Shown here: one piece after another, positions 27,739 through 42,361 of the stretch | Position numbering within the stretch: position 1 is the first letter of the stretch | Layout of the letters: every line of letters starts with the position of its first letter | Virus record (IMG/VR): IMGVR_UViG_3300024500_000049 | Location: 1 to 42,361 of that record | Strand: one strand, 5' to 3' | Source: a virus | Length of the DNA: 42,361 nucleotides | Notes under the pieces: generated by a model | What the model saw: only the letters and a program-made list of their open reading frames with translations | Told to the model about the DNA's origin: nothing | Database searches by the model: none | Program-made: the position numbers and the translations under genes

Positions 27739-30700
27739 ATGGCTGAGTATAAATTAGGTAGAATACGTTTTATTTGGAAAGATCAGTGGGCAGCAGGAAC
27801 CACGTATCTCAAAGATGATGTAGTTCGCAAAAATGGTAAAGTTTACATCTGCGTGATCGGGCACACAGCCGCTTCGGATTTTTACGTAGACGCAGACAAT
27901 ATTCCAGCTCGTTGGAATCAAATGAGTGACGGCCAAACATGGCGTTCAGATTGGTCTCCAGATACAGTTTACTATCTCAATGACATAGTAAAATATGGCG
28001 GACAAGTCTATATCTGTACACAAGGACACACTTCGGCAGCTACCTATGCTCTCGGTCTAGAACAAGATCTAGATCTTGGTGACAGCACAGTTTCTAAATG
28101 GCACATTTTTGCCGAATCTTTTGATTGGAAAAATGATTGGGTACCAAATTATAGATATAAGAGACACGATATCGTCAAGTATGGTGGTAACACATACCTT
28201 TGTAATACTGGACACACTTCCGCATCTGATTATACATATGGTCTAGAAGGTCTAGGATTAGTCACACCTGGTGTTCAAGCAGATATAGGCAAGTGGGATC
28301 TATATTCAGAATCTTTCGAATGGAAGACTGACTGGGCACCTAGCACACGATATAAATTACACGATGTGGTAAGATTTGGTGGTACCACTTATGTTTGTAA
28401 TCTAGGTCATACTTCTGCTGCTACATTTGACCTTGGGTTAGAAGCTGACCAGACAAAATGGGATTATTTCAATCAAGGTATACAATATCTCTACGATTGG
28501 GATAATGGCGATGTAAACTATAAGATCAACGATGTGGTAAAATATGGTGGAGATCTTTGGATCTGTACCAAAAAACACAAGTCGAACACTTCTACTCTTT
28601 TCCAAACAGAAGAAGCCGCAGGACGTTGGAAGAAATTCGTCGAAGGTCTTAAATTCCAAGATTCATGGAATAGCTCAACAGTGTATGAACCAGGTGACAT
28701 CGTAACATATGGTGGTTATGCTTATGTGGCAAAGACTAATCACAGCAACGTTTCACCGATCGCAGCAGTGGCTGGTGGAATCAATTGGAGTTTATACACT
28801 ACTGGATTTACTCTTAAAAACAATTGGGATCAAGACACAAATTATAAAGTAGGTGAAGTAGTTAGACTCAACGGGTATTCTTATGCTTGTATAGCCGATA
28901 CTACAAAATACACAACTACGGTAACAGCTACTAGTCAGTCTACTGGTCAATTAACTATAAACAACAGTCTGGCTACCACTACATCTACAGCAACAACCAG
29001 CGTGACTGTAAATTCTGTAACTTATAATTATGTTCGAGTTAACAGTGGTACAGGACTTAGCATTGGTAGATCTATCGTATTCACTGGTACCACATTTGGT
29101 GGTATCACGGCAAATCAAACTTATTATATCGTAGGATTACCTACTACAACACCACAGACTATCGTTTCAGTGGCACAGGCCAGCACTATAGTTACAGTAA
29201 CAACTAATCTAGTACATGGATATACTGCCGGACAGACAGTCACGGTAACAGGAACCAGCCTAGTAGATGCTGCCAATGTGGTGATAACTGCTGTGCCTAA
29301 TGCTTATACATTTACCTATGATCTAGCCAGCAACACAGTACCTACTACTACAGTGTCTGGTACAGTAACACCGGCAGCACAGATTATTATTTCATCTAGC
29401 TATAACGGATCTCCATTGACATTGACTACTGCGTCAGGTTCGATGGGAGTATCAGCTGGTGAAACTTATTTTGTAGGACAAGCTATTAGATTTAGCGGTA
29501 CGACATTCGGAAATATACAGACAGGATCAACACCAAAACAAACCTATTGGATCTATTCTGTAGACGGTCTTAATACTCTAAAGATTTCTACGACACAGTA
29601 TGGTTCTCCTGTTTCTACTACAGCTACCGGTACTAATGGTCAGTCTACGATCACCGTGACTAGCTTGACTGGTATAGCCGTAGGGTTCCAAGTGACTGGC
29701 AATGGTATCGGTAGCGGAGCAACTGTAGTCAGCATAGTAGGCTATGTTGTCACACTCAGTCAACCTAATACCAGCAATATCACTACAGGAACTGGAGCAA
29801 TTACATTCAGTTCATATTTTGTACCTCAGACACAGACTGGTTCGATGACTGCTGAAATAGTAGCAGAACCACCAAATGACACATTCTGGGGTAGATTGAA
29901 TTCAGGCATTAAATGGACTAATTCTTGGGTAACCGACATAGACTATTTCTTAGGTGATGCTGTTCGCTATGGACCAAATAGTTACATCTGTATACAACAA
30001 CATCATTCATTGACCAGCAACAGACCAGACAATGATGTGACAGGAACTTTCTGGAACTTGTTGGCTAATGGTCAGGAATCATCAGTATTGACCACACAAG
30101 GTGATCTAGTTTACTTCGGCGGTTCTGGACCTACAAGATTGCCAATAGGGCAAGATGGTCAAGTGCTGACAGTCAATGGTAATACATTGGCTCCAAATTG
30201 GAAGTTCTGGGGCAGCATCGATCAAGTTTATTATGTAGCTACTTCAGGTACAGACAGTGCTTATCCTATCTATGGTGCTACATTAGACAAACCATGGAAG
30301 ACTATCAGATATGCTTGCGAACAGATATTAGCAGGACCTAGAAATCCTAATGCTGCTTATCTTATAAATGTTAACAGACAGTTCATCCAACGAGAAACTG
30401 TAAATTGGATCAACTATCAAATCGCTAACAATATATCTCCTTTCACTACTGGTTTCACTTATGATCAAACCAAATGCGAAAGAGATACAGGTTATGTAAT
30501 CGATGCTTTAGTCTGGGACTTAACACACGGCGGCAATGTGAGATCTAGAGCGGCAGCATTAAGCTATGTTGGCGGAACATATACTTTATTATCTTCACAG
30601 AAAACACAAACCAACGCAGCACTAAATTATGCTATCAATAATGTGTTAGTCGCCGCAGTATTAGCTAACGCAGCACCTTTCCAAAACTATCAAGTACTAA

Positions 30701-33700
30701 ATGGAGTAGCTGTTGGTTCTCGTATCAATCAAGTTATCAATACAAATTATACTTCAGAAACTGTATCATCAGATATTACTGCTTTATTAAAAATAATCAC
30801 AGATGCTATAACAGCAGGTGTATCTACTAATATTCCTGCTCAGGTACAACCAAATTATACTATCTTGGCTAAAACTGGAGTATATTATGAAACATTACCT
30901 ATCGTTGTGCCAGCGTTTACCGCGATAGTAGGAGACGAATTAAGATCTACAAACATACGTCCAGCTGCTTCGCAAGTAGCTGCTGGTGATGTCACTTACA
31001 GTCTAGCAGCATTGGCTTATATCAAGACTATAATCAGCAATGTAGTGACTGGTACCACAGTAACTACTAATCAAATCACATATTCACAAGATAAAACACT
31101 GCCTTTGGCTACAGGTACTGAAGGAACTACCGTACAGAATCTTGTACAAAATATCATCGACTATATTAATTTCTATATCAATAGCACAGGCAGTGCTCCA
31201 GCTATGACTGGTACCAACACACCGGCTAGCACTTACGATCCGTATGCCGCTGCTAGATTGTTAGAATTGAACAGAAACTTTATCGTAGCTCAAACTAATG
31301 CCTATATAGCAGCGACATATCCTGCTTATAGTTACAATGTGGCATCATGTTCTAGGGACGTTAATCGTTATATAGATGCTCTTAAATATGATCTAGTCTA
31401 TACAGGAAATTATAAAACATTAACATACGCAAAACTATATGTCAATGCGGTAACTGGCAGTCTCTTACAAAATATGTTCTTGGTAAGAAATGCCTGTGGT
31501 CTAAGAAATTGTACCGTACAAGGATTGACAGGTACATTAGGATCAGCCAACGCATATGGAACTAAGAGACCTAGTGCTGGAGCCTATGTCAGCCTAGATC
31601 CAGGCTATGGACCAAACGATTCGGATGCTTGGGTAACCACAAGATCTACATATGTACAAAACGTGACTACATTTGGCACGGCGGCAATCGGTCTTAAGAT
31701 CGATGGTAATTTACATAACGGTGGCAATAAATCTGTTGTTGCTAACGACTTTACACAGGTCATCAGCGATGGTATCGGTGTATGGTGTACCAATAATGGG
31801 TTGACAGAACTTGTGTCTGTGTTCTCGTATTATGGACACATGGGATACCTAGCAGAAGCTGGTGGTAAGATACGTGCTACTAACGGTAACTCATCATATG
31901 GTGATTACGGTACTGTGTCTGAGGGTGTTGATGCGACAGAAGTTCCGATCACTGCTCAGATTGACAATAGAGCATCCGCAGCACAAGTTGGGTTGACAGT
32001 ACAAAACGGCAATGCTATACAGAGATTAGAATTTACTAATGCTGGTATAAACTATAATAATTCTGCTACATTTACTTTCAACGGGGCAGGTATTAATGCG
32101 GCAGCAGTATTTGACGAAACTAGAGATAATGCTATTTTTGAAGCTAGACAATTACAGTTAGCAGCAGATGGTTCAGATGGCATGTATGGCGGATCATCAT
32201 ACTATACAGCACAGAACGTTGCCCAGGCGGGCGGTCTATATCAGATCACGCTAGCTGCTACAGATAGCCAAACTTCTAGCGGTTATCTGGGAATGAGAAT
32301 AGTCACTGTATCAGGTACTGGTGCAGCTCAACAGGCTAAGATCATCAACTACAACGCAGGTAACAAGATCGCTCTTGTGGCTAAAGAATCATTCGCAGAT
32401 ATCACAGTTACTGGTAGCACTATCAGTGGTAACACTTTGACTACTACTGCCGCAGAACAAGATAGATTGTATGCTAACATGCCATTGTATCTTAGCGCAG
32501 CTATTGGTGGGTTGAGTGCTAACTCTTTATATTATGTGGTTGGTTCTAGTATCGCTACACCCGGAACTACTTTCCAAGTTTCAACAGCACCGAGCGGATC
32601 TGCTGCTACGATAACAGCTACAACAACAGGACAAAACGTCACATTATATCAAGCAGGTTGGGAAGGAGCTATCAACGGTACCACTATCACATCACCGGAT
32701 CCTTCTACATTATATTTGATCGAACCGAGAGTAACATTTGCTGCTCCAGGATTTAAACAAAACGCTACAGGCACACTACCGACCGTAGCTGTTGGATATA
32801 AAGATGGTGTGTTTAGTCAGACAAGATCTACTCATACAGGAGTGTCAGCGAGCGGTGGCGCTGGTTCAAGCGCAACCTTCAACATTACTAGAGTAGGATT
32901 GGTTTATACTGTAACATTAAACAACGGTGGTACGGGCTATGCTGTGGGAAATACTCTAACTATTTTAGGAACCAGTGTCGACGGTGCTACTCCAAGGAAT
33001 GACATCACGATAACAGTTACAAAAGTTACAAGTCCTACAGGAGTTATCAGTGCGTTCAGCTCTACTGGTTTAGGTAGAGGTGGACAGTTCTTTGCTTTAC
33101 CAAACAGTGGAGCAACAGGTGCATATTCAAGGGATGGCAGTACATGGACATCTACTACTATCACTAACCAATCTTGGGGAACAGTAGCTACTGGTACTAT
33201 TAGTAACGTGGATTATGTACAAATATTGCCAGGTAGTGGATCGGCTAATTTCCAATACAGCACCAATGGAGGACAAACGTGGACAAGTTCTACGCTGCCA
33301 ACTACACAATCATGGACCAGTTCCGCATTTGGTAATGGTGTATTCATGGCAGTGTCCAGCACATCTAATACACCTATAACATCATCAAATGGTACGAGCT
33401 GGGCTGTTACAGCCGGAAACCTTGGCGCTTTTACTAATTTAGTAGGAGTTGCTTACGGATTGGGTAGATTTATGGTATTGCCAGGATCAGCAGCTAACAC
33501 AACAGCATCATACAGTCTCAATAACGGCACTACATTTGTGGCTACGACATTACCTTCCAGCCAGACATGGTCTGGTATAGCATATGGTAATGGAAGATTT
33601 GTAGCCATAGCGTCAACTAATAGAGCAGGTGCTATCAGCATAGATGGTGTAAACTGGACAGCAGTAACACTACCGAATGGAACTATGACCAAGATCAGAT

Positions 33701-35421
33701 ATGCTCAAGGTCTGTTTATGATGATAACTAGCGGTAGTGCTAATACTGTATGGACATCGCAAGATGGTATCAATTGGACTAACAGGACATTTGCTACCAG
33801 CGATACGAGAGCATTCCCATTCTTTGGTGATCCAAACAATGTACCAAGCTGGATAGTTCTACCGTCGAGTGCTACTACTACAGGTATCATAGCAAAAACT
33901 GGTGCTACTGCTACAGGCAGAGTTTTAGTAACTAACAACAGTATTTCTCAAACTAGAATCGTTGAACCTGGTTCGGGATATCCGTTCGGATCTGTAACTA
34001 ACGTAGGACCTACAACAACTATCACAGTAACCAGCGTATCAGGAACTACTATAACCACTTCAACAAACTTGACTACTGCTGGTATACTATCAGATCAACC
34101 TATAGTATTCAGCGCAGGATTAGGCAATATCGTCGGCGGCAGTACATATTATGTGTTAACGGCTAGTGGCACATCGATGACTATTAGCTCTAGCTTACAA
34201 GGAACTGCTTTCACTGTAGGCACAGCATCTGGTACTATCACTGGTACTACTGCTAGCGTGATCAAAGTTGATCAAACTGATAATCTAGTCAATGGTCAAC
34301 CTGTGAACTTTACCAATTTAGCTGCGGTTGGCTTGTCTACTAATAAAGCATACTATGTGATCAGCGGTAGTATCACTACTACCAGCTTCAGAGTTTCACA
34401 AAATACAGTATCTTCGACAGCGGCAACGCTGACCACACCAGCATCTAGTTTGGTGAATGCTTTTTATAACGCAGGCGGTGCTATAACTATAACTGATCCG
34501 AACCGTGTGTTTGCTGCCCCTATACAAGTAAGAGCTGGATCTAGTGTATTGGCTAATCCTACATTTACCAATAGAGGTACTTTATGGACTACAGCTACAA
34601 CAACAATATCAGGCGACGGTGTTGGAGATATATTCCAACCAGGTCAATATATCTCTATCAAGAACATTAGCTCACTGCCAACAGTTGGATCGAATGTGGA
34701 ATTCGCTTCATTACCGGGACAGTATTTCAAACTAGTTACTACCAGAAACTTGATAGGAACTGGTCCATATACTGCTACATTCCAGATCAGTCCGTTAATG
34801 TCCGTGACAGATTCTCCACCAGATGGCGATGCTATCACTGTAAGAATCAGATATAGCCAAGTGCGTCTAACTGGACATGATTTTTTGAGCATCGGTACTG
34901 GTAACTTTACCAATACAAATTATCCAGGAATACCACTGATCGCTTCTGATTCGGCCAAGCAGACCAAAGAGTCCGCCGGAGGTCGCGTGTTCTTTACCAG
35001 CACTGACCAAGACGGTAACTTCAACGTTGGTAACTTGTTCTCGGTACAACAGGCTACAGGTACTGCTACCCTAAATGCTAACGCATTCAATCTAGCAGGA
35101 CTACAGAGCTTGAGCTTAGGCTCAGTTAACGTGGGAGGTAGCGCAGGCGCTACTATCACTGAATTCAGTACAGATCCATATTTCACAGCTAATAGCGATG
35201 CTATATTGCCTACTCAACGAGCTATCAAGGCATATGTAGCTTCACAAATTGGTTCTGGATCCAGTACTTTGAACGTAAATACACTTACTGCTGGTTCGAT
35301 CTTTGTAAGCGGAAACACCATTACAACCACTACAAACCTCGAAATCAAAGTAACTACAAAATTGAATTTCATCAAGGGTGTGGATGGTTATCCAGTGGCC
35401 TTGAATTTGTTCTTAACATAA
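27739..35421 (+). CDS. Giant carbohydrate-binding protein 2: CBM5/12-like array, interrupted beta-helix, one beta-propeller
   Basis: 2560 residues, the longest gene here and a paralogue of the preceding giant. Seven CBM5/12-like modules run to about residue 388. A 320-residue Thr/Ser-rich insert with SIGRSIVFTG...TYYIVG modules follows, then an eighth module (about 715-779). A beta-helix begins at about 822 (YYVATSGTDS, PWKTIRYACE) but is interrupted by two helical modules carrying CERDTGYVIDALVWDL and CSRDVNRYIDALKYDL. It resumes with CGLRNCTVQGLTGTLG. One Asp-box propeller (about 1778-2030), further YYV modules, and a C-terminal tip matching the paralogue (QVRLTGHDFLSIGTGN, DQDGNFNVGNLF, PTQRAIKAYV) follow. 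It is likely a partner or alternative adhesin for surface polysaccharide; enzymatic activity is not evident. Function is inferred from domains. Confidence 0.92.
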   Translation: MAEYKLGRIRFIWKDQWAAGTTYLKDDVVRKNGKVYICVIGHTAASDFYVDADNIPARWNQMSDGQTWRSDWSPDTVYYLNDIVKYGGQVYICTQGHTSAATYALGLEQDLDLGDSTVSKWHIFAESFDWKNDWVPNYRYKRHDIVKYGGNTYLCNTGHTSASDYTYGLEGLGLVTPGVQADIGKWDLYSESFEWKTDWAPSTRYKLHDVVRFGGTTYVCNLGHTSAATFDLGLEADQTKWDYFNQGIQYLYDWDNGDVNYKINDVVKYGGDLWICTKKHKSNTSTLFQTEEAAGRWKKFVEGLKFQDSWNSSTVYEPGDIVTYGGYAYVAKTNHSNVSPIAAVAGGINWSLYTTGFTLKNNWDQDTNYKVGEVVRLNGYSYACIADTTKYTTTVTATSQSTGQLTINNSLATTTSTATTSVTVNSVTYNYVRVNSGTGLSIGRSIVFTGTTFGGITANQTYYIVGLPTTTPQTIVSVAQASTIVTVTTNLVHGYTAGQTVTVTGTSLVDAANVVITAVPNAYTFTYDLASNTVPTTTVSGTVTPAAQIIISSSYNGSPLTLTTASGSMGVSAGETYFVGQAIRFSGTTFGNIQTGSTPKQTYWIYSVDGLNTLKISTTQYGSPVSTTATGTNGQSTITVTSLTGIAVGFQVTGNGIGSGATVVSIVGYVVTLSQPNTSNITTGTGAITFSSYFVPQTQTGSMTAEIVAEPPNDTFWGRLNSGIKWTNSWVTDIDYFLGDAVRYGPNSYICIQQHHSLTSNRPDNDVTGTFWNLLANGQESSVLTTQGDLVYFGGSGPTRLPIGQDGQVLTVNGNTLAPNWKFWGSIDQVYYVATSGTDSAYPIYGATLDKPWKTIRYACEQILAGPRNPNAAYLINVNRQFIQRETVNWINYQIANNISPFTTGFTYDQTKCERDTGYVIDALVWDLTHGGNVRSRAAALSYVGGTYTLLSSQKTQTNAALNYAINNVLVAAVLANAAPFQNYQVLNGVAVGSRINQVINTNYTSETVSSDITALLKIITDAITAGVSTNIPAQVQPNYTILAKTGVYYETLPIVVPAFTAIVGDELRSTNIRPAASQVAAGDVTYSLAALAYIKTIISNVVTGTTVTTNQITYSQDKTLPLATGTEGTTVQNLVQNIIDYINFYINSTGSAPAMTGTNTPASTYDPYAAARLLELNRNFIVAQTNAYIAATYPAYSYNVASCSRDVNRYIDALKYDLVYTGNYKTLTYAKLYVNAVTGSLLQNMFLVRNACGLRNCTVQGLTGTLGSANAYGTKRPSAGAYVSLDPGYGPNDSDAWVTTRSTYVQNVTTFGTAAIGLKIDGNLHNGGNKSVVANDFTQVISDGIGVWCTNNGLTELVSVFSYYGHMGYLAEAGGKIRATNGNSSYGDYGTVSEGVDATEVPITAQIDNRASAAQVGLTVQNGNAIQRLEFTNAGINYNNSATFTFNGAGINAAAVFDETRDNAIFEARQLQLAADGSDGMYGGSSYYTAQNVAQAGGLYQITLAATDSQTSSGYLGMRIVTVSGTGAAQQAKIINYNAGNKIALVAKESFADITVTGSTISGNTLTTTAAEQDRLYANMPLYLSAAIGGLSANSLYYVVGSSIATPGTTFQVSTAPSGSAATITATTTGQNVTLYQAGWEGAINGTTITSPDPSTLYLIEPRVTFAAPGFKQNATGTLPTVAVGYKDGVFSQTRSTHTGVSASGGAGSSATFNITRVGLVYTVTLNNGGTGYAVGNTLTILGTSVDGATPRNDITITVTKVTSPTGVISAFSSTGLGRGGQFFALPNSGATGAYSRDGSTWTSTTITNQSWGTVATGTISNVDYVQILPGSGSANFQYSTNGGQTWTSSTLPTTQSWTSSAFGNGVFMAVSSTSNTPITSSNGTSWAVTAGNLGAFTNLVGVAYGLGRFMVLPGSAANTTASYSLNNGTTFVATTLPSSQTWSGIAYGNGRFVAIASTNRAGAISIDGVNWTAVTLPNGTMTKIRYAQGLFMMITSGSANTVWTSQDGINWTNRTFATSDTRAFPFFGDPNNVPSWIVLPSSATTTGIIAKTGATATGRVLVTNNSISQTRIVEPGSGYPFGSVTNVGPTTTITVTSVSGTTITTSTNLTTAGILSDQPIVFSAGLGNIVGGSTYYVLTASGTSMTISSSLQGTAFTVGTASGTITGTTASVIKVDQTDNLVNGQPVNFTNLAAVGLSTNKAYYVISGSITTTSFRVSQNTVSSTAATLTTPASSLVNAFYNAGGAITITDPNRVFAAPIQVRAGSSVLANPTFTNRGTLWTTATTTISGDGVGDIFQPGQYISIKNISSLPTVGSNVEFASLPGQYFKLVTTRNLIGTGPYTATFQISPLMSVTDSPPDGDAITVRIRYSQVRLTGHDFLSIGTGNFTNTNYPGIPLIASDSAKQTKESAGGRVFFTSTDQDGNFNVGNLFSVQQATGTATLNANAFNLAGLQSLSLGSVNVGGSAGATITEFSTDPYFTANSDAILPTQRAIKAYVASQIGSGSSTLNVNTLTAGSIFVSGNTITTTTNLEIKVTTKLNFIKGVDGYPVALNLFLT
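27760..30078 (+). repeat. CBM5/12-like module array with a 320-residue insertion
   Basis: Modules 1-7 run from 27760 to about 28900 (e.g. WRSDWSPDTVYYLNDIVKYGG, YICTQGHTSAA). After module 7, residues about 388-711 are an inserted Thr/Ser-rich region, and the eighth module (WTNSWVTDIDYFLGDAVRYG) follows at about 29910-30078, adjoining the linker that also follows module 8 in the paralogue. Confidence 0.8.
30364..31452 (+). repeat. Two helical modules inserted in the beta-helix
   Basis: Segments at about 30364-30580 and 31261-31452 share N-R-x-F-I ... C-x-R-D-x-x-x-x-I-D-A-L-x-x-D-L ... G-N and are predicted helical. They interrupt the beta-helix on both sides of TGVYYETLPIVVPAF and are absent from the paralogue at 21612. 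Confidence 0.72.
33070..33800 (+). repeat. Asp-box beta-propeller of giant protein 2
   Basis: Motifs SRDGSTW, STNGGQTW, SSNGTSW, SLNNGTTF, SIDGVNW and SQDGINW recur every 40-50 residues, with strands such as YGNGRFVAIAS between them. Six blades are recognised; a seventh may be degenerate. Confidence 0.78.
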
Positions 35422-35434
35422 CGGAGAAAAATAA

Positions 35435-35758
35435 ATGGCAACAGGAGTTTTGGGCACATACGATCATACCGCAGGAGCTTGGTTTGCTCTATATACGGTC
35501 CCAGCCACTACATTTTCGGTGGTCAGCTTGTCAATGTGTAACAGAAGCAATCAAGCTGTGAACGTAAGAGTAGCAGTTTCTACAAGTTCAGTTAGCCCTG
35601 CTAACGGCGAAATCATCGAATTTGATGCAGAAGTATTAGGAAAAGGTGTGCTAGAAAGGACCGGTATCGTGATGGATGCCGGTAAAGTGCTTCTAGTTTA
35701 CTCAAATGCTGCGGGCGTTAGCTCGGTAGCATTTGGAATCGAAACATCAACTGTATAA
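35435..35758 (+). CDS. Small beta-sandwich virion protein, copy 3 of 3
   Basis: A 107-residue protein with VVSLSMCNRSNQAVNVRVAV, KGVLERTGIVMDAGKVLLVYSNA and a final strand FGIETSTV. It has the same layout as the proteins at 8596 and 20876, including the Cys-Asn pair at the end of the second strand. It starts 13 nt after the stop of the 2560-aa gene with a CGGAG site and is probably co-transcribed with it. It is inferred to be a small structural accessory, such as a cap or adaptor for the adjoining fibre. It is the third case of this arrangement in the window. Confidence 0.85.
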   Translation: MATGVLGTYDHTAGAWFALYTVPATTFSVVSLSMCNRSNQAVNVRVAVSTSSVSPANGEIIEFDAEVLGKGVLERTGIVMDAGKVLLVYSNAAGVSSVAFGIETSTV

Positions 35759-35784: not shown

Positions 35785-36117
35785 ATGGGAAGATATCTTA
35801 CAACTACAGGAACAGCAGGCAATACGGTCAGAGAGATCTCAGGAGCCTACTCTGCAGTAGTCAACGACAGAATTTTAGCTAATACTGCTAGTAGCGGTTT
35901 TACTATAACACTGCCTGCTAACAGCACATTATTTTTGAATGATACTATTCAGATCATTGACGTAGCAGGAAACGCAGCTATTAACAACATCACTATCGCT
36001 AGAAACAGCTCTAAGATCAACAATATCGCAGACGATTTCGTGATTGACGTTAACTATGCTGTGATCACGTTGATCTATACAGGATCAACATATGGTTGGA
36101 TCGTAGCCAACGCTTAA
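35785..36117 (+). CDS. Small fibre-domain protein (NDRILANT-FTITLPA type)
   Basis: A 110-residue beta protein: NDRILANTASSGFTITLPAN, DTIQIIDVAGNAAINNITIARN, SKINNIADDF and LIYTGSTYGWIV. This N-D-R-x-L-x-x-(D/N)-T...FTxTLPA...GDxxxxxDxxG...NNxTxxRNG pattern is a recurrent domain at the end of phage tail fibres and in small stand-alone virion proteins. It lies at the head of the Cys-rich gene cluster with 18 nt to the next gene, likely one operon. A structural role as a fibre or decoration component is inferred; there is no enzymatic motif. Confidence 0.87.
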   Translation: MGRYLTTTGTAGNTVREISGAYSAVVNDRILANTASSGFTITLPANSTLFLNDTIQIIDVAGNAAINNITIARNSSKINNIADDFVIDVNYAVITLIYTGSTYGWIVANA

Positions 36118-36135: not shown

Positions 36136-37107
36136 ATGCCAACCTCGCTTAAAGCAACTAACGGTTTTAAAAGTCAGGCTTTCTGGAATCAGGAAACTAA
36201 TCTAGAAAGAGGGACTATACATGTTTACACCCCAGGTAACGACTTCCAAAGTTTCCCCTGCTGCGGATGTTTCGTCGCACCTAGCTGTGGTACAGCAGTC
36301 ATAGAAATCTGGGGAGCTGGCGGAAGCGGTTCTCGTATGTGCTGCTGTGGTGGCGGCATGCCAGGAAATTCAGGTGCCTATGCCAAAAAGACTATCAGAA
36401 TGGGCGCAGGCTGTTATATCTATTTCTATGTAGGCATGGCCTGCGGTAACGCAGACTCTTTATGTTATAGAGGCTGTTCAGAAGCTACCTGTCTATGTTG
36501 GTTTGGTAACCAAGGACTTAGTGGCTGTATGTGCGCACAAGGTGGACAGGGCGGTATCAGTTACTGTTCTACAGGTACTTCTATGTACTGCTGCTATGCG
36601 GCCAATAGTTGGCCAACTACAAACTTAGGCAATGGTTGCGGAATCGTCTGTAATAATTGCTCAGGATCATATCAAGCATGTGCCTACGGTGGAGACGTTA
36701 ACCTCTGTAGTAGGATTTCCTGCGTGGTCTATCTAGGCTGCTTGCCCAGCTGCGTATGTAACATCAATTGGAGCATGGCTATCCCCGCAGGACAATTTTC
36801 AAAATGCGGAGGCTATGTCAGCTACACGACAGAAAATAACCAAGACTACGCTAACTGGGTCGGTGTAGGACAACATAATCATATCATGGCACTGAATGCT
36901 GCCAGTCGTTGGCCACAACAGGGTATGCCATGGGCATACTGCTGGGGGTTTGGCGGTGGTTGCGGCTGTTACGAAAACGAAGGCTGTACAGGATTTGTTC
37001 CACCAGGACATCCTGGAATGGGACCGCTTCCATGTCCAGATGTGAGAGATCATGCTAGAAAAGGCGGCAGTGGCATGGTAAGAATTAAATTTATACCGGG
37101 AACATAA
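36136..37107 (+). CDS. Cysteine/glycine-rich putative adhesin A
   Basis: A 323-residue protein with 33 cysteines (10%) plus very high Gly and Trp/Tyr. The N-terminal segment ETNLERGTIHVYTPG leads into the core AVIEIWGAGGSGSRMCCCGGG followed by PGNSGAYAKK, resembling glycine-rich domains of phage receptor-binding proteins. Further blocks: LCYRGCSEATCLCW, CAQGGQGG, YCSTGTSMYCC, CGIVCN, YGGDVNLC, SCVCN and C-terminal PCPDVRDHARKGGSG then VRIKF. No signal peptide. It is the first of three tandem paralogues. The WGAGGSG core and position suggest a tip or decoration protein. The Cys clusters might bind metal or form disulfides after lysis; nothing in the sequence decides this. The AAGGA site is 11 nt upstream. 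The real reading frame is secured by conservation among the three copies. Confidence 0.92.
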   Translation: MPTSLKATNGFKSQAFWNQETNLERGTIHVYTPGNDFQSFPCCGCFVAPSCGTAVIEIWGAGGSGSRMCCCGGGMPGNSGAYAKKTIRMGAGCYIYFYVGMACGNADSLCYRGCSEATCLCWFGNQGLSGCMCAQGGQGGISYCSTGTSMYCCYAANSWPTTNLGNGCGIVCNNCSGSYQACAYGGDVNLCSRISCVVYLGCLPSCVCNINWSMAIPAGQFSKCGGYVSYTTENNQDYANWVGVGQHNHIMALNAASRWPQQGMPWAYCWGFGGGCGCYENEGCTGFVPPGHPGMGPLPCPDVRDHARKGGSGMVRIKFIPGT

Positions 37108-37108
37108 G

Positions 37109-38089
37109 ATGCCAACTTCGATTAGAACATGGACACAAACTAGACTAAACTTCATCGCAGATAATGAAGAAAACTTAGAACGAGGTTCGATCTATCTGTT
37201 CAGCGGTTCTGCTGAAAGAACGAATTTTAGTAACGGTGGTTTTTGCTGGGTAGCACCTGCTACCGGACAGGCTATCGTAGACATTTGGGGAGCTGGTGGT
37301 AGCGGTGCTCGTATGTGCTGCTGCGGTGGCGGTCTTCCGGGCAATCCAGGAGCATTTGCTAGAAAATGTCTATGTATACAGTCTGGCTGCTGGATCTGCG
37401 GATTTACTGGTATGAGCTGCGGCTCACCAGATCTTTGCTTTAGAGGTTGTTCGGAATATTCAGGTATCTGCTGGCAAGCTAGCGGTACAAACGGTTGTGT
37501 ATGCGCCCAAGGTGGCCGCGGAGGCACTAGCTACTGTTCTACAGGAACTTCTCTCTATTGCTGTTTTACAGCTGGTAACTTCTGTACTACACTAATCAAC
37601 GCTAACTGTGGTGTTGTCTGTAACTATGGTTCAGGCACAGCCAGCTGCTGCGCACAAGCATTCGGTGGCGACATTAACTGTTTTGGCGGTTTTAGTTGTG
37701 TACTTTTCGCAGGTTGTCAACCAAGTTGTCCATGTTCAACAATCTATCACATAGCTACACCTCCATACTATTATTCAACATGCGGTGGAGTGATCACTTA
37801 CACCTCTGAAGGTGATAGCGGAGCAGCTAACTGGTCGGGCGGTACATTGACAGGATACATACACGGTATGTCAGTCATGGGTCGTCAACCACATCACGGT
37901 ACACCTCCAGAGCAATCTTGCTGGACTGGCGGTCGTACATGCGGATGTTACGAAGGTCAAGGATGTATTCCTTTTGTACCAGCAGGATTCCCAGGACCTG
38001 GTCCTTTGCCTTGCCCAGATGTTCGCGATATGGCATTCCGTGGCGGTCATGGTGCTGTAAGAATCAAATTCATAGCCGCAACAGAATAA
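37109..38089 (+). CDS. Cysteine/glycine-rich putative adhesin B
   Basis: A 326-residue paralogue of A, again with 33 cysteines, starting one base after A's stop. Conserved: NEENLERGSIYLFSG, IWGAGGSGARMCCCGGG, LCFRGCSEYSG, CAQGGRGGTSYCSTGTSLYCC, CGVVCNYG, FGGDINC, SCPCS, CGCYEGQGC and PCPDVRDMAFRGG. Differences from A include extra cysteines KCLCIQSGCWICG near residue 88 and fewer near the N-terminus, so cysteine number is kept while positions shift. It also has HHG near residue 255. The very short gap implies coupled translation and stoichiometric production with A. The role is the same as inferred for A. Confidence 0.92.
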   Translation: MPTSIRTWTQTRLNFIADNEENLERGSIYLFSGSAERTNFSNGGFCWVAPATGQAIVDIWGAGGSGARMCCCGGGLPGNPGAFARKCLCIQSGCWICGFTGMSCGSPDLCFRGCSEYSGICWQASGTNGCVCAQGGRGGTSYCSTGTSLYCCFTAGNFCTTLINANCGVVCNYGSGTASCCAQAFGGDINCFGGFSCVLFAGCQPSCPCSTIYHIATPPYYYSTCGGVITYTSEGDSGAANWSGGTLTGYIHGMSVMGRQPHHGTPPEQSCWTGGRTCGCYEGQGCIPFVPAGFPGPGPLPCPDVRDMAFRGGHGAVRIKFIAATE

Positions 38090-38101
38090 GGTGAAATAAG
38101 A

Positions 38102-39085
38102 ATGGCACAATCGCTTAATAGCTTAGTAAGATTAAAAACTCCAGATAGGAATGAAGATAACCTTGAATTAGGCCAGATCTTTGTGTTCAGTCCTGGCACC
38201 ATGTATACCAACTTCTGTTATAACGGTGGTTCTGGTTTCTGTTGGAAAGCTCCAGGAACAGGTACAGCAGTTATCGAAATGTGGGGAGCTGGTGGTAGCG
38301 GTGCTAAGATGTGCTGCTGCGGCGGCGGAACTCCAGGAAATGCAGGTGCTTATGTAAGAAAAACTATTTCGGTTAACTCTAGCACATATGTTTGCGGTTG
38401 TACCGGATTTTCCTGTGGTAACTCAGACTCATTATGCTATAGAGGTTGCTCAGATCCTTCGGGATTAAACTGGGTGAATGGTACTGGTGCGATAGGAGCT
38501 ACCAGTGGCTGCTTATGTGCCCAAGGTGGTAACGGTGGCCTTAGCTGGTGTTCTACAGGTACTTCTATGTATTGTTGTATGGGGGCTAGCGGATGGTGTA
38601 CCACTTATCTAGGTACAGGTTGCGGTGTGGTCTGTAATTACTGTAATGGTATGTGGATTGCCTGCGGGTTTGGTGGAGACATTAACTGCTGCGGTCGATT
38701 CAGCTGTATTACCTATTATGGTTGTCTACCTAGCTGTATTTGTTTGTTCCAATATCATATTGCTGTACCGGCTAATTTCTTCTCATGCGGTTGCGGTAGT
38801 ATGGCTAATTTCACAACAGAAAATGATAATAGGCATTCTAACTGGTCAGGCCAAGGTGTTAACCAACAGATGAACGCATTAGGAGCATTGAGTAGATCGC
38901 CGAGACAAGGTATTCCGCAAAGCTACTGCTGGCGTTCAGATCGTAAGTGTGGATGTTATAATATGCAGGGCTGTATGAACTATAACCCACCTGGTGTGGG
39001 CGGTGTCGGACCAGCTCCGTGCCCAGACGTCCGCGATCACGCTATGCGTGGTGGAATGGGCGCAGTGCGTATTAGATTCTTTTGA
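38102..39085 (+). CDS. Cysteine/glycine-rich putative adhesin C
   Basis: A 327-residue third paralogue with 33 cysteines, 12 nt after B with an AAGGTGA site. Landmarks: NEDNLELGQIFVFSPG, MWGAGGSGAKMCCCGGG, VCGCTGFSCGNSDSLCYRGC, CLCAQGGNGG, WCSTGTSMYCC, CGVVCNYCNG, FGGDINCC, SCICL, CGCYNMQGC and PCPDVRDHAMRGG, ending in IRFF. The middle has an extra loop (NWVNGTGAIGATSG) not present in A or B. The three genes arose by tandem duplication and have diverged strongly between the conserved blocks, suggesting different partner or ligand specificity. A virion role is inferred. Confidence 0.92.
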   Translation: MAQSLNSLVRLKTPDRNEDNLELGQIFVFSPGTMYTNFCYNGGSGFCWKAPGTGTAVIEMWGAGGSGAKMCCCGGGTPGNAGAYVRKTISVNSSTYVCGCTGFSCGNSDSLCYRGCSDPSGLNWVNGTGAIGATSGCLCAQGGNGGLSWCSTGTSMYCCMGASGWCTTYLGTGCGVVCNYCNGMWIACGFGGDINCCGRFSCITYYGCLPSCICLFQYHIAVPANFFSCGCGSMANFTTENDNRHSNWSGQGVNQQMNALGALSRSPRQGIPQSYCWRSDRKCGCYNMQGCMNYNPPGVGGVGPAPCPDVRDHAMRGGMGAVRIRFF

Positions 39086-39106: not shown

Positions 39107-39757
39107 ATGAGAAAGTTATTTCAAATTACATTGCCCGACGAACCATACAAAACAGCCACTACTAAAAATCAAAAAGTAGACTGTATGTATGTGGGCCCAC
39201 GATATATGGTACTTTGTATCGATAATACTACTGATTTAGTAAAATATGTAGGTAGACGTGCTGACACGATCGAAGAAGCAGAATTAGATAATCACGTAGA
39301 AGATGATCATTATCATGTTTTGCTAGATGCTTCTGTGAATACATTTGAAGCAGCATATCTTACAGGACAGTACGAACACGGTGAGATAGAGAATTATACC
39401 GAAACGTTACCTACAAAAAACGCAGCAGGTGAGTTCGAAACTTATACATATCACTATGATGATTACAGAGGTATTATAGGACAGATTTATTGGAATCAGG
39501 TTCTTTATTACAATCCTTCAAATAAAACTTTCAAAGAACCCGCAAGAAGAGAACATGCTACTGACTGGGATCAAGTAGTAAAAACTACTAAAGATGGGGC
39601 TGCTGAAATACGTAAAATGTTAGAAGCTAATGATTATTTTCCAGCTCAATTAGCAGTTATCAATGAATATCTAGATTGGGTTGATACTTTTGAAGAAAAG
39701 TATGCTGATGTAGATCATTGGAAAGTTCCATTTCCACCATATCCAAACATGGCTTAA
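39107..39757 (+). CDS. Unrecognised conserved-looking 216-aa protein
   Basis: I do not recognise this family. The 216-residue product is acidic and aromatic. The N-terminus has KLFQITLPDEPYKTA, then CMYVGPRYMVLCIDNTTDLV (beta-like), a His-rich acidic stretch (NHVEDDHYHVLLDA), then YRGIIGQIYWNQVLYYNP and ATDWDQVVKTTKDGAAEIRKML, a helical end (YLDWVDTFEEKY) and finally WKVPFPPYPNMA. There is no signal peptide or transmembrane helix. It lies between the Cys-rich cluster and the sugar-modifying genes, with its own promoter candidate. It might be a virion or assembly protein; the His/Asp cluster could bind metal, but this is speculation. Gene reality is well supported by length, ribosome site and position. 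Confidence 0.85.
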   Translation: MRKLFQITLPDEPYKTATTKNQKVDCMYVGPRYMVLCIDNTTDLVKYVGRRADTIEEAELDNHVEDDHYHVLLDASVNTFEAAYLTGQYEHGEIENYTETLPTKNAAGEFETYTYHYDDYRGIIGQIYWNQVLYYNPSNKTFKEPARREHATDWDQVVKTTKDGAAEIRKMLEANDYFPAQLAVINEYLDWVDTFEEKYADVDHWKVPFPPYPNMA

Positions 39758-39838: not shown

Positions 39839-40795
39839 ATGGAACAGCAACAACCAACACAGCGATCAAAAGCCTTTTTCTTAAATGGCGGCGCTGGCAG
39901 AGTTCTATGCTCTATCCCGGCATTAGAAAAATACGAAGAAGAATCAGGGGATAAAGATTTCATCATAGTGTGCGAAGGTGGTACGGAAGTGTTCAAAGGA
40001 CATCCTACACTAGACAGCAGAACATATGACAATTGGCACAAGAATCTTTTTGTAGAAAAAATCAAAGATCGCGATTGTGTAACACCCGAGCCTTATAGAG
40101 TTTGGGAATATTACAATCAAAAATGCGATCTAGCACAGGCATTTGATATCGAAATCAATAGAAAAGGCATTAGAGAATTACCTAAACCTAATCTAAGATT
40201 GAGCAAAGACGAATTGTTAGTAGGTAGACAGCTAATCGCCGACGTCAAGAAAAAAATCAAGAAAGAAAAAATCATAGTTTTCCAACCATTTGGCCGAGGC
40301 ATAGACTATGTCGATGGTTCTTTTGTAGATCGTACTAACAGAAGCTTTGAATTTAAAGATGTAAAATCAATCATACGAAAACTTCAAGAAGCCAATTACG
40401 GTGTCGTAATGATGGGAGAAATGCGGCTCGATCTTACCAGCGAAAAACTAAAAGATGATGTAGCAGCACCAGAAAACACTACCATAAGACAGTGGGCAGC
40501 TATCATCAAATACGCAGATCATTTCTTGGGCTGTGACAGTGTGGGTCAACACCTAGCCTATATCGTAGGCAAACAATCTACTGTAGTATTCGGATCTACA
40601 TATCCAGTTAACGTGTCTTACCCTAATTGTAAGTACATGAATCTTCTAGATATGGCTGAAGAAATAAGAGAATATAGTCCTATCAGGATTACACTAGACG
40701 AACGTATTGATAGAAAACTAGAAGGAGTTATGTCCATGACTCCGGAAATTGTTGATTATGTAGTGAATGCTGTTTTAGGGAAGAAACAAAAATGA
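39839..40795 (+). CDS. GT9-like (heptosyltransferase-type) glycosyltransferase
   Basis: A 318-residue protein with the GT-B layout of glycosyltransferase family 9 (ADP-heptose:LPS heptosyltransferases). The N-terminal glycine loop is FFLNGGAGRVLCSIPALEKY, matching the family's G-D-x-(L/V)-x-x-(L/I)-P-A-L element. The C-terminal domain begins at about residue 140 with IIVFQPFGRG and contains IRQWAAIIKYADHFLG, CDSVGQHLAYIVGKQ and VVFGSTYP, the counterpart of the GT9 nucleotide-sugar site (x-x-D-S-G-x-x-H-L-A...FG-x-T). It would transfer a sugar from a nucleotide donor; acceptor and donor are unknown. Its stop overlaps the carbamoyltransferase start (ATGA), so the two are coupled and probably act on the same product, either a surface or virion glycan or hypermodified DNA. 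Confidence 0.85.
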   Translation: MEQQQPTQRSKAFFLNGGAGRVLCSIPALEKYEEESGDKDFIIVCEGGTEVFKGHPTLDSRTYDNWHKNLFVEKIKDRDCVTPEPYRVWEYYNQKCDLAQAFDIEINRKGIRELPKPNLRLSKDELLVGRQLIADVKKKIKKEKIIVFQPFGRGIDYVDGSFVDRTNRSFEFKDVKSIIRKLQEANYGVVMMGEMRLDLTSEKLKDDVAAPENTTIRQWAAIIKYADHFLGCDSVGQHLAYIVGKQSTVVFGSTYPVNVSYPNCKYMNLLDMAEEIREYSPIRITLDERIDRKLEGVMSMTPEIVDYVVNAVLGKKQK

Positions 40796-42361
40796 GTGAA
40801 AGCAAGAATCCAATGTTAAACACTGGCTGGATCGCAGCCATAGCTAGAGGTCATAATTCAGGTATCTGTCTATTCAAAGACGGAGAGATCGTTTTTTCTG
40901 CTGAAGAAGAAAGATTTACCAGACAGAAATACGACGGCGGTCCGTATGCTTCGATGATGAAAATCAAAGAATACACAGACAAAATCGATTATCTAGTAGT
41001 AGCACACACACAAAAATTAAATGAAACTGCGGGTCGTGTTGACTATTCTGGTGATGATGTATACACAGGATTAGCTCGTAAGATGAATCTTATTGATCGA
41101 AAAGCTGATTTACATAATCATCCTCAAGTAATTGACCTTAGTTTTATGCATCATAAGCTACACGCTGCTTGTGCGTTTTATCGTTCGGGATTTGATGATG
41201 CTGTAGCATTGATTGTAGATGGTGCCGGTACTTTCATCCAGATGTCTTATGCTAACCAACCTATATGGGTATGGGAAGTAGAAAGTATCGTAGACTGTTC
41301 ATATCCATCAAAGTTCAAAACTTTGTACAAGCATTATGGTACTAGAGAGCCTATTGCTGGTGCTATCGAAACTAGCATTCCGTCTGATCAGTACGGTGAA
41401 GTAAATGATTTTCATGCTGCCGTATTATCAGACAGAGCAGGTATCGTTAAGACTTACGAAGCAGTCACAGAATATTGTGGGTTCAGTGCTATCGAAGCAG
41501 GCAAGACTATGGGATTGTTCCCATACGGACAGAAAAACGATAAGATTCCTCCATTGTTTGATTTTACATCTAAGGTACCCTTATCAAACAGAAATGTTAT
41601 AGTTCCAGCATATCCTTCGTCTGCTAGAGTCAACGCACAACTATTTGATTATTTGGACGAAGAAATTCCAGAAGGAGTAGATCCTACTAAATTACAAAGT
41701 CGTAGAGATTTGGCTTATGCTTGTCAAACACAGACTCAAGACCAAGTAGTGAGATTGATACGAAAAGCTGTAGAAATTAGCGGCAAGAAGAAAGTAGTGA
41801 TCAGCGGTGGCTATGGTCTTAACTGTGTGGCCAATTATCATTATCTAGAAGCATTGAAAGACGGGGGTATCGAAATTTATGTAGAACCTATCTCTAACGA
41901 TGCCGGAACAGCTATGGGAGCAGGACTGATGTTTTGGCATGCCATGACTGACAACACAGACATACAGAAACTAGATACCCTTTACCTCGGACCTAAGTAC
42001 GAATATACACAGGAAGAAATTGCGGAAAAGGTCAAGTACGCAGGTGGCGAGTTGACAGACGCTACCAATGAACAAGTAGTAGAACTGCTACGTTCTAAGA
42101 ATATCGTGACGATCTTCCAAGGTAGATCAGAAAACGGTCCGAGGGCCCTAGGCAATAGAAGTGTTTTATTTGATCCTACATTTCCAGATGGAAAGGATTT
42201 TGTAAACACTGTCAAACGTCGAGAATATTTCCGTCCTTTTGCGGGCAGCATTATACATGATGTTGTACATGATTGGTTTGATCTGCGCGGCATGGATGAA
42301 AGTCCTCACATGATGTATGCTGTAAACTGTAAGCCCGGAATCGCAGAAAAGATACCCAGCA
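40792..42361 (+). CDS. NodU/CmcH-family carbamoyltransferase (3' end cut by window)
   Basis: The frame opens at ATG 40792 (4-bp overlap with the previous gene, AGGGAAG about 10 nt upstream) and stays open for 523 codons to the right edge. Family landmarks in order: GHNSGICLFKDGEIVFSAEEE-RFTR (residues about 18-43), FMHHKLHAACAFYRSGFDDA and VDGAGT (about 119-147, ATP/carbamoyl-phosphate region), EAGKTMGLFPYG (about 233), VVISGGYGLNCVANYH (about 335), EPISNDAGTAMGAG (about 365), IFQGRSENGPRALGNRS (about 440) and KRREYFRPFAGSI (about 475). These proteins use carbamoyl phosphate and ATP to O-carbamoylate a hydroxyl on sugars or related compounds. Viral relatives are, to my knowledge, linked to carbamoylation of 5-hydroxymethylcytosine in phage DNA. 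Here a DNA or glycan target cannot be told apart. The assignment is very secure. Confidence 0.96.
   Translation, partial: MSESKNPMLNTGWIAAIARGHNSGICLFKDGEIVFSAEEERFTRQKYDGGPYASMMKIKEYTDKIDYLVVAHTQKLNETAGRVDYSGDDVYTGLARKMNLIDRKADLHNHPQVIDLSFMHHKLHAACAFYRSGFDDAVALIVDGAGTFIQMSYANQPIWVWEVESIVDCSYPSKFKTLYKHYGTREPIAGAIETSIPSDQYGEVNDFHAAVLSDRAGIVKTYEAVTEYCGFSAIEAGKTMGLFPYGQKNDKIPPLFDFTSKVPLSNRNVIVPAYPSSARVNAQLFDYLDEEIPEGVDPTKLQSRRDLAYACQTQTQDQVVRLIRKAVEISGKKKVVISGGYGLNCVANYHYLEALKDGGIEIYVEPISNDAGTAMGAGLMFWHAMTDNTDIQKLDTLYLGPKYEYTQEEIAEKVKYAGGELTDATNEQVVELLRSKNIVTIFQGRSENGPRALGNRSVLFDPTFPDGKDFVNTVKRREYFRPFAGSIIHDVVHDWFDLRGMDESPHMMYAVNCKPGIAEKIPS

Follow-up and report, generated by a model that had tools for sequence, protein, structure and literature searches.

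Phage structural proteins are synthesised in a reducing cytoplasm, and heavy use of cysteine is rare among them. What role, then, could be played by three adjacent proteins in which about one residue in ten is a cysteine, encoded beside the tail-fibre genes of a T4-like phage that is aquatic and uncultured? The sequence examined was IMG/VR record IMGVR_UViG_3300024500_000049, positions 1-42,361, and this whole stretch of 42,361 nucleotides is referred to here as the window; the three genes are designated A, B and C. On balance we favour, with modest confidence, the reading that the trio are distal receptor-binding tips of the long tail fibre, in which the glycine lattice would be replaced by a cysteine network, probably of disulfides formed after release. 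The features at the centre of the question are:

36136..37107, + strand: cysteine-rich protein A, 323 amino acids (aa), 33 cysteines (Cys); probable TNF-like/glycine-rich receptor-binding fibre tip
36340..36348, + strand: CCC triplet, residues 69-71 of A, within WGAGGSG-x-x-M-CCC-GGG; Cys in 101/101 aligned members
37109..38089, + strand: cysteine-rich protein B, 326 aa, 33 Cys; orthologous group distinct from A and C
38102..39085, + strand: cysteine-rich protein C, 327 aa, 33 Cys; orthologous group distinct from A and B

Selection on cysteine in the family

A preliminary description of the window had reported three neighbouring paralogues with 33 Cys each, which differ at some Cys sites. The open reading frames (ORFs) of 323, 326 and 327 aa were verified, and the variable sites were all located (FPCCGC in A, KCLCIQSGCWICG in B and VCGCTGFSC in C). 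Cys content is 10.1-10.2% in the trio and 0-1.9% in the remaining large ORFs of the window. The three proteins are 50-54% identical in pairwise alignment, share the core WGAGGSG-x-(R/K)-MCCCGGG and contain 16.7-17.5% glycine over their whole length. As a separate observation on codon use, 48% of the Cys codons of the trio are TGC, compared with 21% in the other ORFs of the window (Fisher P 0.0009).

The number 33 itself had been taken as significant, and this was rejected. Totals in relatives span 28-38 and differ within one genome (e.g., 32/29/32), and the chance of drawing three equal totals from the family distribution is P about 0.036, so the tie is attributed to chance. The enrichment, by contrast, far exceeds chance: of the 258 ORFs that follow the cassette in related phages and are 200 aa or longer, none reaches 6.5% Cys (maximum 2.8%). 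To call such richness extreme in a phage protein assembled in the cytoplasm, as the preliminary description does, is reasonable, although disulfide-linked virions are possible in such phages, as in Milano (PMC10811340).

A profile built from A, B and C and searched against viral contigs gave 91 relatives, 80 of which were kept; the kept contigs hold 197 homologous ORFs, typically in tandem. All members of an alignment of 101 non-redundant sequences from uncultured T4-like phages are Cys-rich. Conservation of cysteine across homologues, on which the preliminary description had made its reading depend, is evident, with 25 alignment columns at least 80% Cys, and the mean retention of the residues of A among members is highest for Cys (78%), followed by Gly (70%), all others being lower. 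In 34 independent pairs of 80-97% identity, replacement affected 2.4% of Cys sites, 9.1% of Gly, 10.7% of Trp and 12-37% of the other residues, while 26% of the retained Cys codons carried a silent difference (TGT/TGC). Because replacement is so low and silent change abundant, the Cys side chain itself is under strong purifying selection. A compositional accident or functionless drift towards cysteine, in favour of which the GC content at third codon positions of the trio (0.33-0.41) is above that of most other structural genes of the window, is contradicted by Cys being the least-replaced residue amid ample silent change. Furthermore, families of as little as 40% identity are still enriched, as are five cultured cyanophages, and we give the drift explanation hardly any credence.

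In tblastn searches of A or C against annotated phages, no match was obtained at 1e-5, only weak cyanophage pieces with E up to 10, and the connection to cultured phages was made through PHROG 4205 and synteny. A search of 84,980 genomes gave a single match, a 15-kb contig in a metagenome-assembled genome (MAG) that carries the same viral cassette, and a cellular origin was rejected on this ground. A contig binned as a Euryarchaeota MAG (PAOW01000006, locus L124) that carries the viral cassette is probably a misbinned phage contig. The gene psbA was found in 1/37 contigs, that one being S-CAM1-like; the window-type phages thus probably use hosts other than cyanobacteria.

Predicted fold and the fibre cassette

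The AlphaFold2 (AF2) model of A, made from the 101-row alignment, has a predicted local distance difference test score (pLDDT) of 80.8 and a predicted template modelling (TM) score of 0.80, with pLDDT below 50 at the N-terminus only. Its top Foldseek match in the PDB is the Pam3 fibre 7ypx (E 1.1e-6, TM 0.45/0.55), with further matches to the Bxb1 tail tip and the ALK/LTK glycine-rich domains. Among viral models, matches were obtained to S-CAM3, P-SSM2 and Syn9 Gp38 and to numerous phage proteins labelled 'glycine-rich domain'. A TNF-like beta sandwich with a glycine-rich loop bundle agrees with the predicted model, and the earlier suggestions that the WGAGGSG core resembles receptor-binding glycine-rich domains and that these are phage tail proteins gain support. 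A sequence search of solved structures returned nothing credible.

The Pfam domain Gly_rich_2 (PF21722) is matched weakly by 6/101 members of the family (best E 4e-4). The third Cys-rich paralogue of S-CAM1 (25 Cys) passes its cut-off (40.1 bits, cut-off 24.3), as does Syn9 gp38 (266 aa, 2 Cys), which is located among the Syn9 fibre genes and is itself a Foldseek match of A. Since a Cys-rich paralogue and a Cys-poor tip protein both pass, and in view of the similarity of the predicted models, the family appears to be a Cys-rich variant of the known TNF-like/glycine-rich tip fold. The hallmark of a standard tip, very high glycine with GGGGxGG strands, is absent from A, B and C, and their glycine (16.7-17.5%) and Cys (10%) contents would make them a variant rather than standard members. 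A characterised relative therefore exists at the level of fold, a kind of match that the preliminary description had regarded as telling against its reading, but no description of these Cys-rich proteins was found in the open-access literature, to which the search was confined.

The neighbouring genes of the window are:

27739..35421, + strand: tail-fibre-like protein, long (2560 aa) and carrying repeats of a W-x-x-x-T-x-Y-x-x-x-D-x-V-x-x-x-G module
35435..35758, + strand: small tail protein, 107 aa; PHROG 11338 'tail fiber protein' (E 1.6e-6), with syntenic proteins of ~106 aa in relatives
35785..36117, + strand: small tail protein, 110 aa; PHROG 31104 (E 4.4e-18), PHROG 9648 tail protein (E 4.6e-8) and synteny
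39107..39757, + strand: 216-aa protein with a beta domain and a C-terminal helical hairpin (AF2, pLDDT 96); its slot and layout alone suggest a probable chaperone of fibre assembly
39839..40795, + strand: GT9-like glycosyltransferase, linked to the Cys-rich cassette; PHROG 8954 (E 1e-135), Pfam GT9 at 20.7 bits, just under the cut-off
40792..42360, + strand: NodU-like carbamoyltransferase, continuing past the window end; Pfam Carbam_trans_N/C (E 1e-26 / 2e-24)

PHROG 4205 (287 profile positions, mostly covered) is matched by A (E 1.9e-10), B (2.6e-5) and C (1.8e-10). Together with PHROG 35878 it connects the trio to homologous Cys-rich proteins of S-CAM1, S-CAM3, S-SSM7, Sf-FS3 and P-SSM2 (259-356 aa, 24-36 Cys, 8.0-11.6% Cys), which occupy the same slot. 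Identity to these is low, however, and the window type forms a separate branch whose phages mostly lack psbA. The cultured cassette runs from a long fibre gene through (usually) two small tail proteins, the Cys-rich tandem and a protein of ~220-270 aa to the PHROG 8954 GT9-like gene and the NodU-like carbamoyltransferase, often with heptose-type sugar genes. In S-CAM1, S-CAM3 and S-SSM7 the slot of the 2560-aa protein is filled by a long gene for a fibre, named 'tail fiber protein' or the like, and the S-SSM7 and Sf-FS3 equivalents of the 216-aa slot match PHROG tail-fibre-assembly families, whereas the 216-aa protein has no PHROG match of its own. In S-SSM7 an annotated overlapping ORF, SSSM7_117, begins within the third Cys-rich gene (L114:7075-7404) and is probably an annotation artefact. 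In a survey anchored on the glycosyltransferase (GT), a Cys-rich ORF lay upstream at 56/66 loci with sufficient upstream sequence. In 9/10 of the remaining loci the GT had no preceding long same-strand gene, i.e., a different context, and in the last (L204) Cys-poor proteins of 488-500 aa precede it. The glycosyltransferase and carbamoyltransferase (39839-42360) possibly serve the phage in modifying its own putative fibre tips. In cyanophages the sugar region after the tips also contains 2-oxoglutarate (2OG)-Fe oxygenases and a cupin annotated 'cysteine dioxygenase'.

Both the gene order and the predicted fold resemble those of Pam3 gp24/gp25 (PMC9608196), where a TNF-like and glycine-rich tip is likewise followed by a protein with a beta domain and C-terminal helices. 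However, the tip domain of gp24 contains 39% Gly and its paper makes no mention of cysteine or disulfide (PMC9608196), whereas the trio contain 17% Gly and 10% Cys over the whole protein; Pam3 has one tip gene against three paralogues here, and no fold similarity to gp25 was detectable in the 216-aa protein. It could also be proposed that the trio are Cys-rich effectors or metal buffers, secreted or kept inside the cell, that lie near fibre genes by chance, given that their location is deduced from genes and models and that all annotated relatives are labelled 'hypothetical protein'. The fold match to fibre tips, the placement of the genes, flanked in many divergent phages by those for fibres and their assembly, and the presence of the Cys-poor canonical tip gene gp38 among the Syn9 fibre genes make this explanation very improbable. 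The trio are probably located at the fibre tip and bind receptors, as the models and gene order suggest.

Three copies per genome

Copy number was determined by searching whole IMG/VR contigs and complete cultured genomes with the family profile. Nearly all genomes of sufficient length carry three copies, in tandem or as 1 + 2. Exactly three copies were found in 31 IMG/VR contigs, in some of which a middle copy of 410-420 aa was matched as two pieces. A middle paralogue of 400-422 aa occurs in one clade (L060, L066, L067 and their relatives), where an extra 80-100 aa splits the profile match. Among the five complete cultured genomes with the Cys-rich cassette, four have three copies (S-CAM1, S-CAM3, S-SSM7 and Sf-FS3) and P-SSM2 has two. 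Contigs with one or two copies mostly end where the missing copy would be, and two weak low-copy cases (G041 and G053) carry diverged relatives barely reached by the profile. In another clade the copies are arranged as 1 + 2, about 22 kb apart, and still total three. This lineage comprises L029, L038, L040, L044, L047 and L077, in several of which the single copy is close to the major capsid gene and is accompanied by separate small proteins of 112 aa and 166 aa.

In the tree, first, middle and third copies group by position across phages (the A group has 18 rows and support 92, the B group 19 rows and support 85, and the C group is less resolved), and the position labels of 18 three-copy loci require only 6 changes. 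The preliminary description had interpreted the triplication as diversification of receptors or ligands by duplication. Because the copies appear ancient, keep separate identities and number three per genome, a fixed set of three non-redundant subunits is the better explanation of the tree and copy counts, and the earlier interpretation is not supported.

Cysteine chemistry at the putative tip

The proposed mechanism starts from the ordinary tip, in which glycine-rich strands, packed as a lattice, keep the variable loops in place. In the Cys-rich version glycine is much reduced, and about 25 conserved Cys per subunit would hold the loops. Folding and assembly of the subunits would take place in the host cytoplasm in the reduced state, with help from the product of the next gene, the 216-aa protein. 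Once the virion meets oxygenated water, the cysteines would oxidise to intra- and inter-subunit disulfides, giving a rigid tip with loops free to vary. A, B and C, as three non-redundant subunits, would form one heterotrimeric tip or occupy three fixed fibre positions.

Several observations weigh against parts of this reading. Pfam search of A, B and C themselves gives no Gly_rich_2 match, and the TM-scores of the A model to the Pam3 fibre (above) are moderate. The model of the 216-aa protein has no PDB fold match below E 0.1, chaperones included; a proven gp25-type chaperone was thus rejected, only slot and two-domain layout agreeing. In the 1 + 2 genomes the single copy adjoins a different long gene ~22 kb from the pair, a poorer fit to one shared tip. 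Joint gain and loss of Cys columns on the tree gives pairing signals (best A119-A129 and A121-A196) that were rejected as too weak, and compensation among cysteines, suggested by the low variance of totals across sequences, was not confirmed branch by branch and is not claimed. Odd and even Cys totals number 18 vs 23 (70% clustering), and 33 is itself odd. Since odd totals are as common as even ones, some Cys lie outside intramolecular disulfides and complete pairing within a subunit is unlikely; a part must fall to inter-subunit disulfides, free thiols or metal. Finally, the CCC and CxC motifs would equally suit metal binding.

The last two points bear on a metal-loaded tip, the iron or zinc idea of the preliminary description, with the same receptor-binding fold but with Cys4-type Zn or Fe sites filled in the reducing cytoplasm. 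The invariant CCC, the several CxC motifs and the lack of an even-number preference are in its favour, and there is a precedent in T4-type fibre tips such as T4 gp37, where HxH motifs bind iron, with the same proposed for marine phages (PMC11705849), of which this would be the Cys counterpart (the Ferrojan-horse proposal). However, Cys would here stand in place of His, and HxH is not conserved: one HNH occurs in A (GQHNHI) and none in B or C, three alignment columns only exceed 30% His, and no conserved pair of His columns lies two apart. The alignment also contains no repeated four-Cys module. We consider metal loading unlikely, and infer that disulfides are the likelier state.

The odd totals, by which one Cys or more in each subunit stays unpaired, would also allow covalent or redox-switched attachment. 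At binding, thiols kept reactive, or labile disulfides, would then exchange with thiols of the host surface or among A, B and C. Milano, an Agrobacterium phage, offers a parallel, as its disulfides require reduction before tail contraction (PMC10811340). One or two cysteines would suffice for such a switch, against the 25 conserved, and no Erv/ALR thiol oxidase was found in eight large contigs (a weak negative, as control genomes likewise gave no match); glutaredoxin was present in 2/8. This alternative seems improbable, less likely still than metal. For the favoured disulfide-held tip Milano is also the closest comparison, being a contractile-tail phage with cytoplasmic assembly and Cys in tail proteins, where disulfides join sheath, baseplate and fibre roots (PMC10811340). 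Its structural proteins contain 2.1% Cys, however, whereas here the bonds are putative and the Cys, at 10%, is concentrated in probable fibre-tip proteins.

Cys enrichment may reach beyond one fold. In the single-cell-derived phages AG-345-O18 (L117) and AG-345-P14 (L116) the same cassette has slot proteins of 9.3-10.7% Cys, which match neither the family profile nor PHROGs nor Pfam:

L117:5021-7294: Cys-rich slot protein, 757 aa, 73 Cys
L117:7294-8163: Cys-rich slot protein, 289 aa, 31 Cys
L116:5117-5962: Cys-rich slot protein, 281 aa, 26 Cys

The 757-aa protein looks like a form of the 107-aa small tail protein into which a very large Cys-rich segment has been inserted, with weak matches at both ends (17.7 bits for the two joined). 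A broader proposition, which we put forward only tentatively, is that aquatic T4-like phages carry an obligate set of three hyper-cysteine (~10%) adhesins, which would be assembled in reduced form and, in open water, become locked or loaded with metal, with selection for Cys acting on the fibre-tip slot itself. If this is confirmed, Cys enrichment would be a trait of the slot rather than of one fold. The candidate adhesin family is widespread, has Cys as its most conserved residue and occurs almost always in sets of three, and a likely role, that of fibre tip, can be assigned to PHROGs 4205 and 35878, previously of unknown function. As the cassette is carried by cultured Synechococcus and Prochlorococcus phages (S-CAM1, S-CAM3, S-SSM7 and P-SSM2), the proposal is directly testable. 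By implication, common phages of fresh water and the sea may rely on oxidation or metal after release to recognise their hosts.

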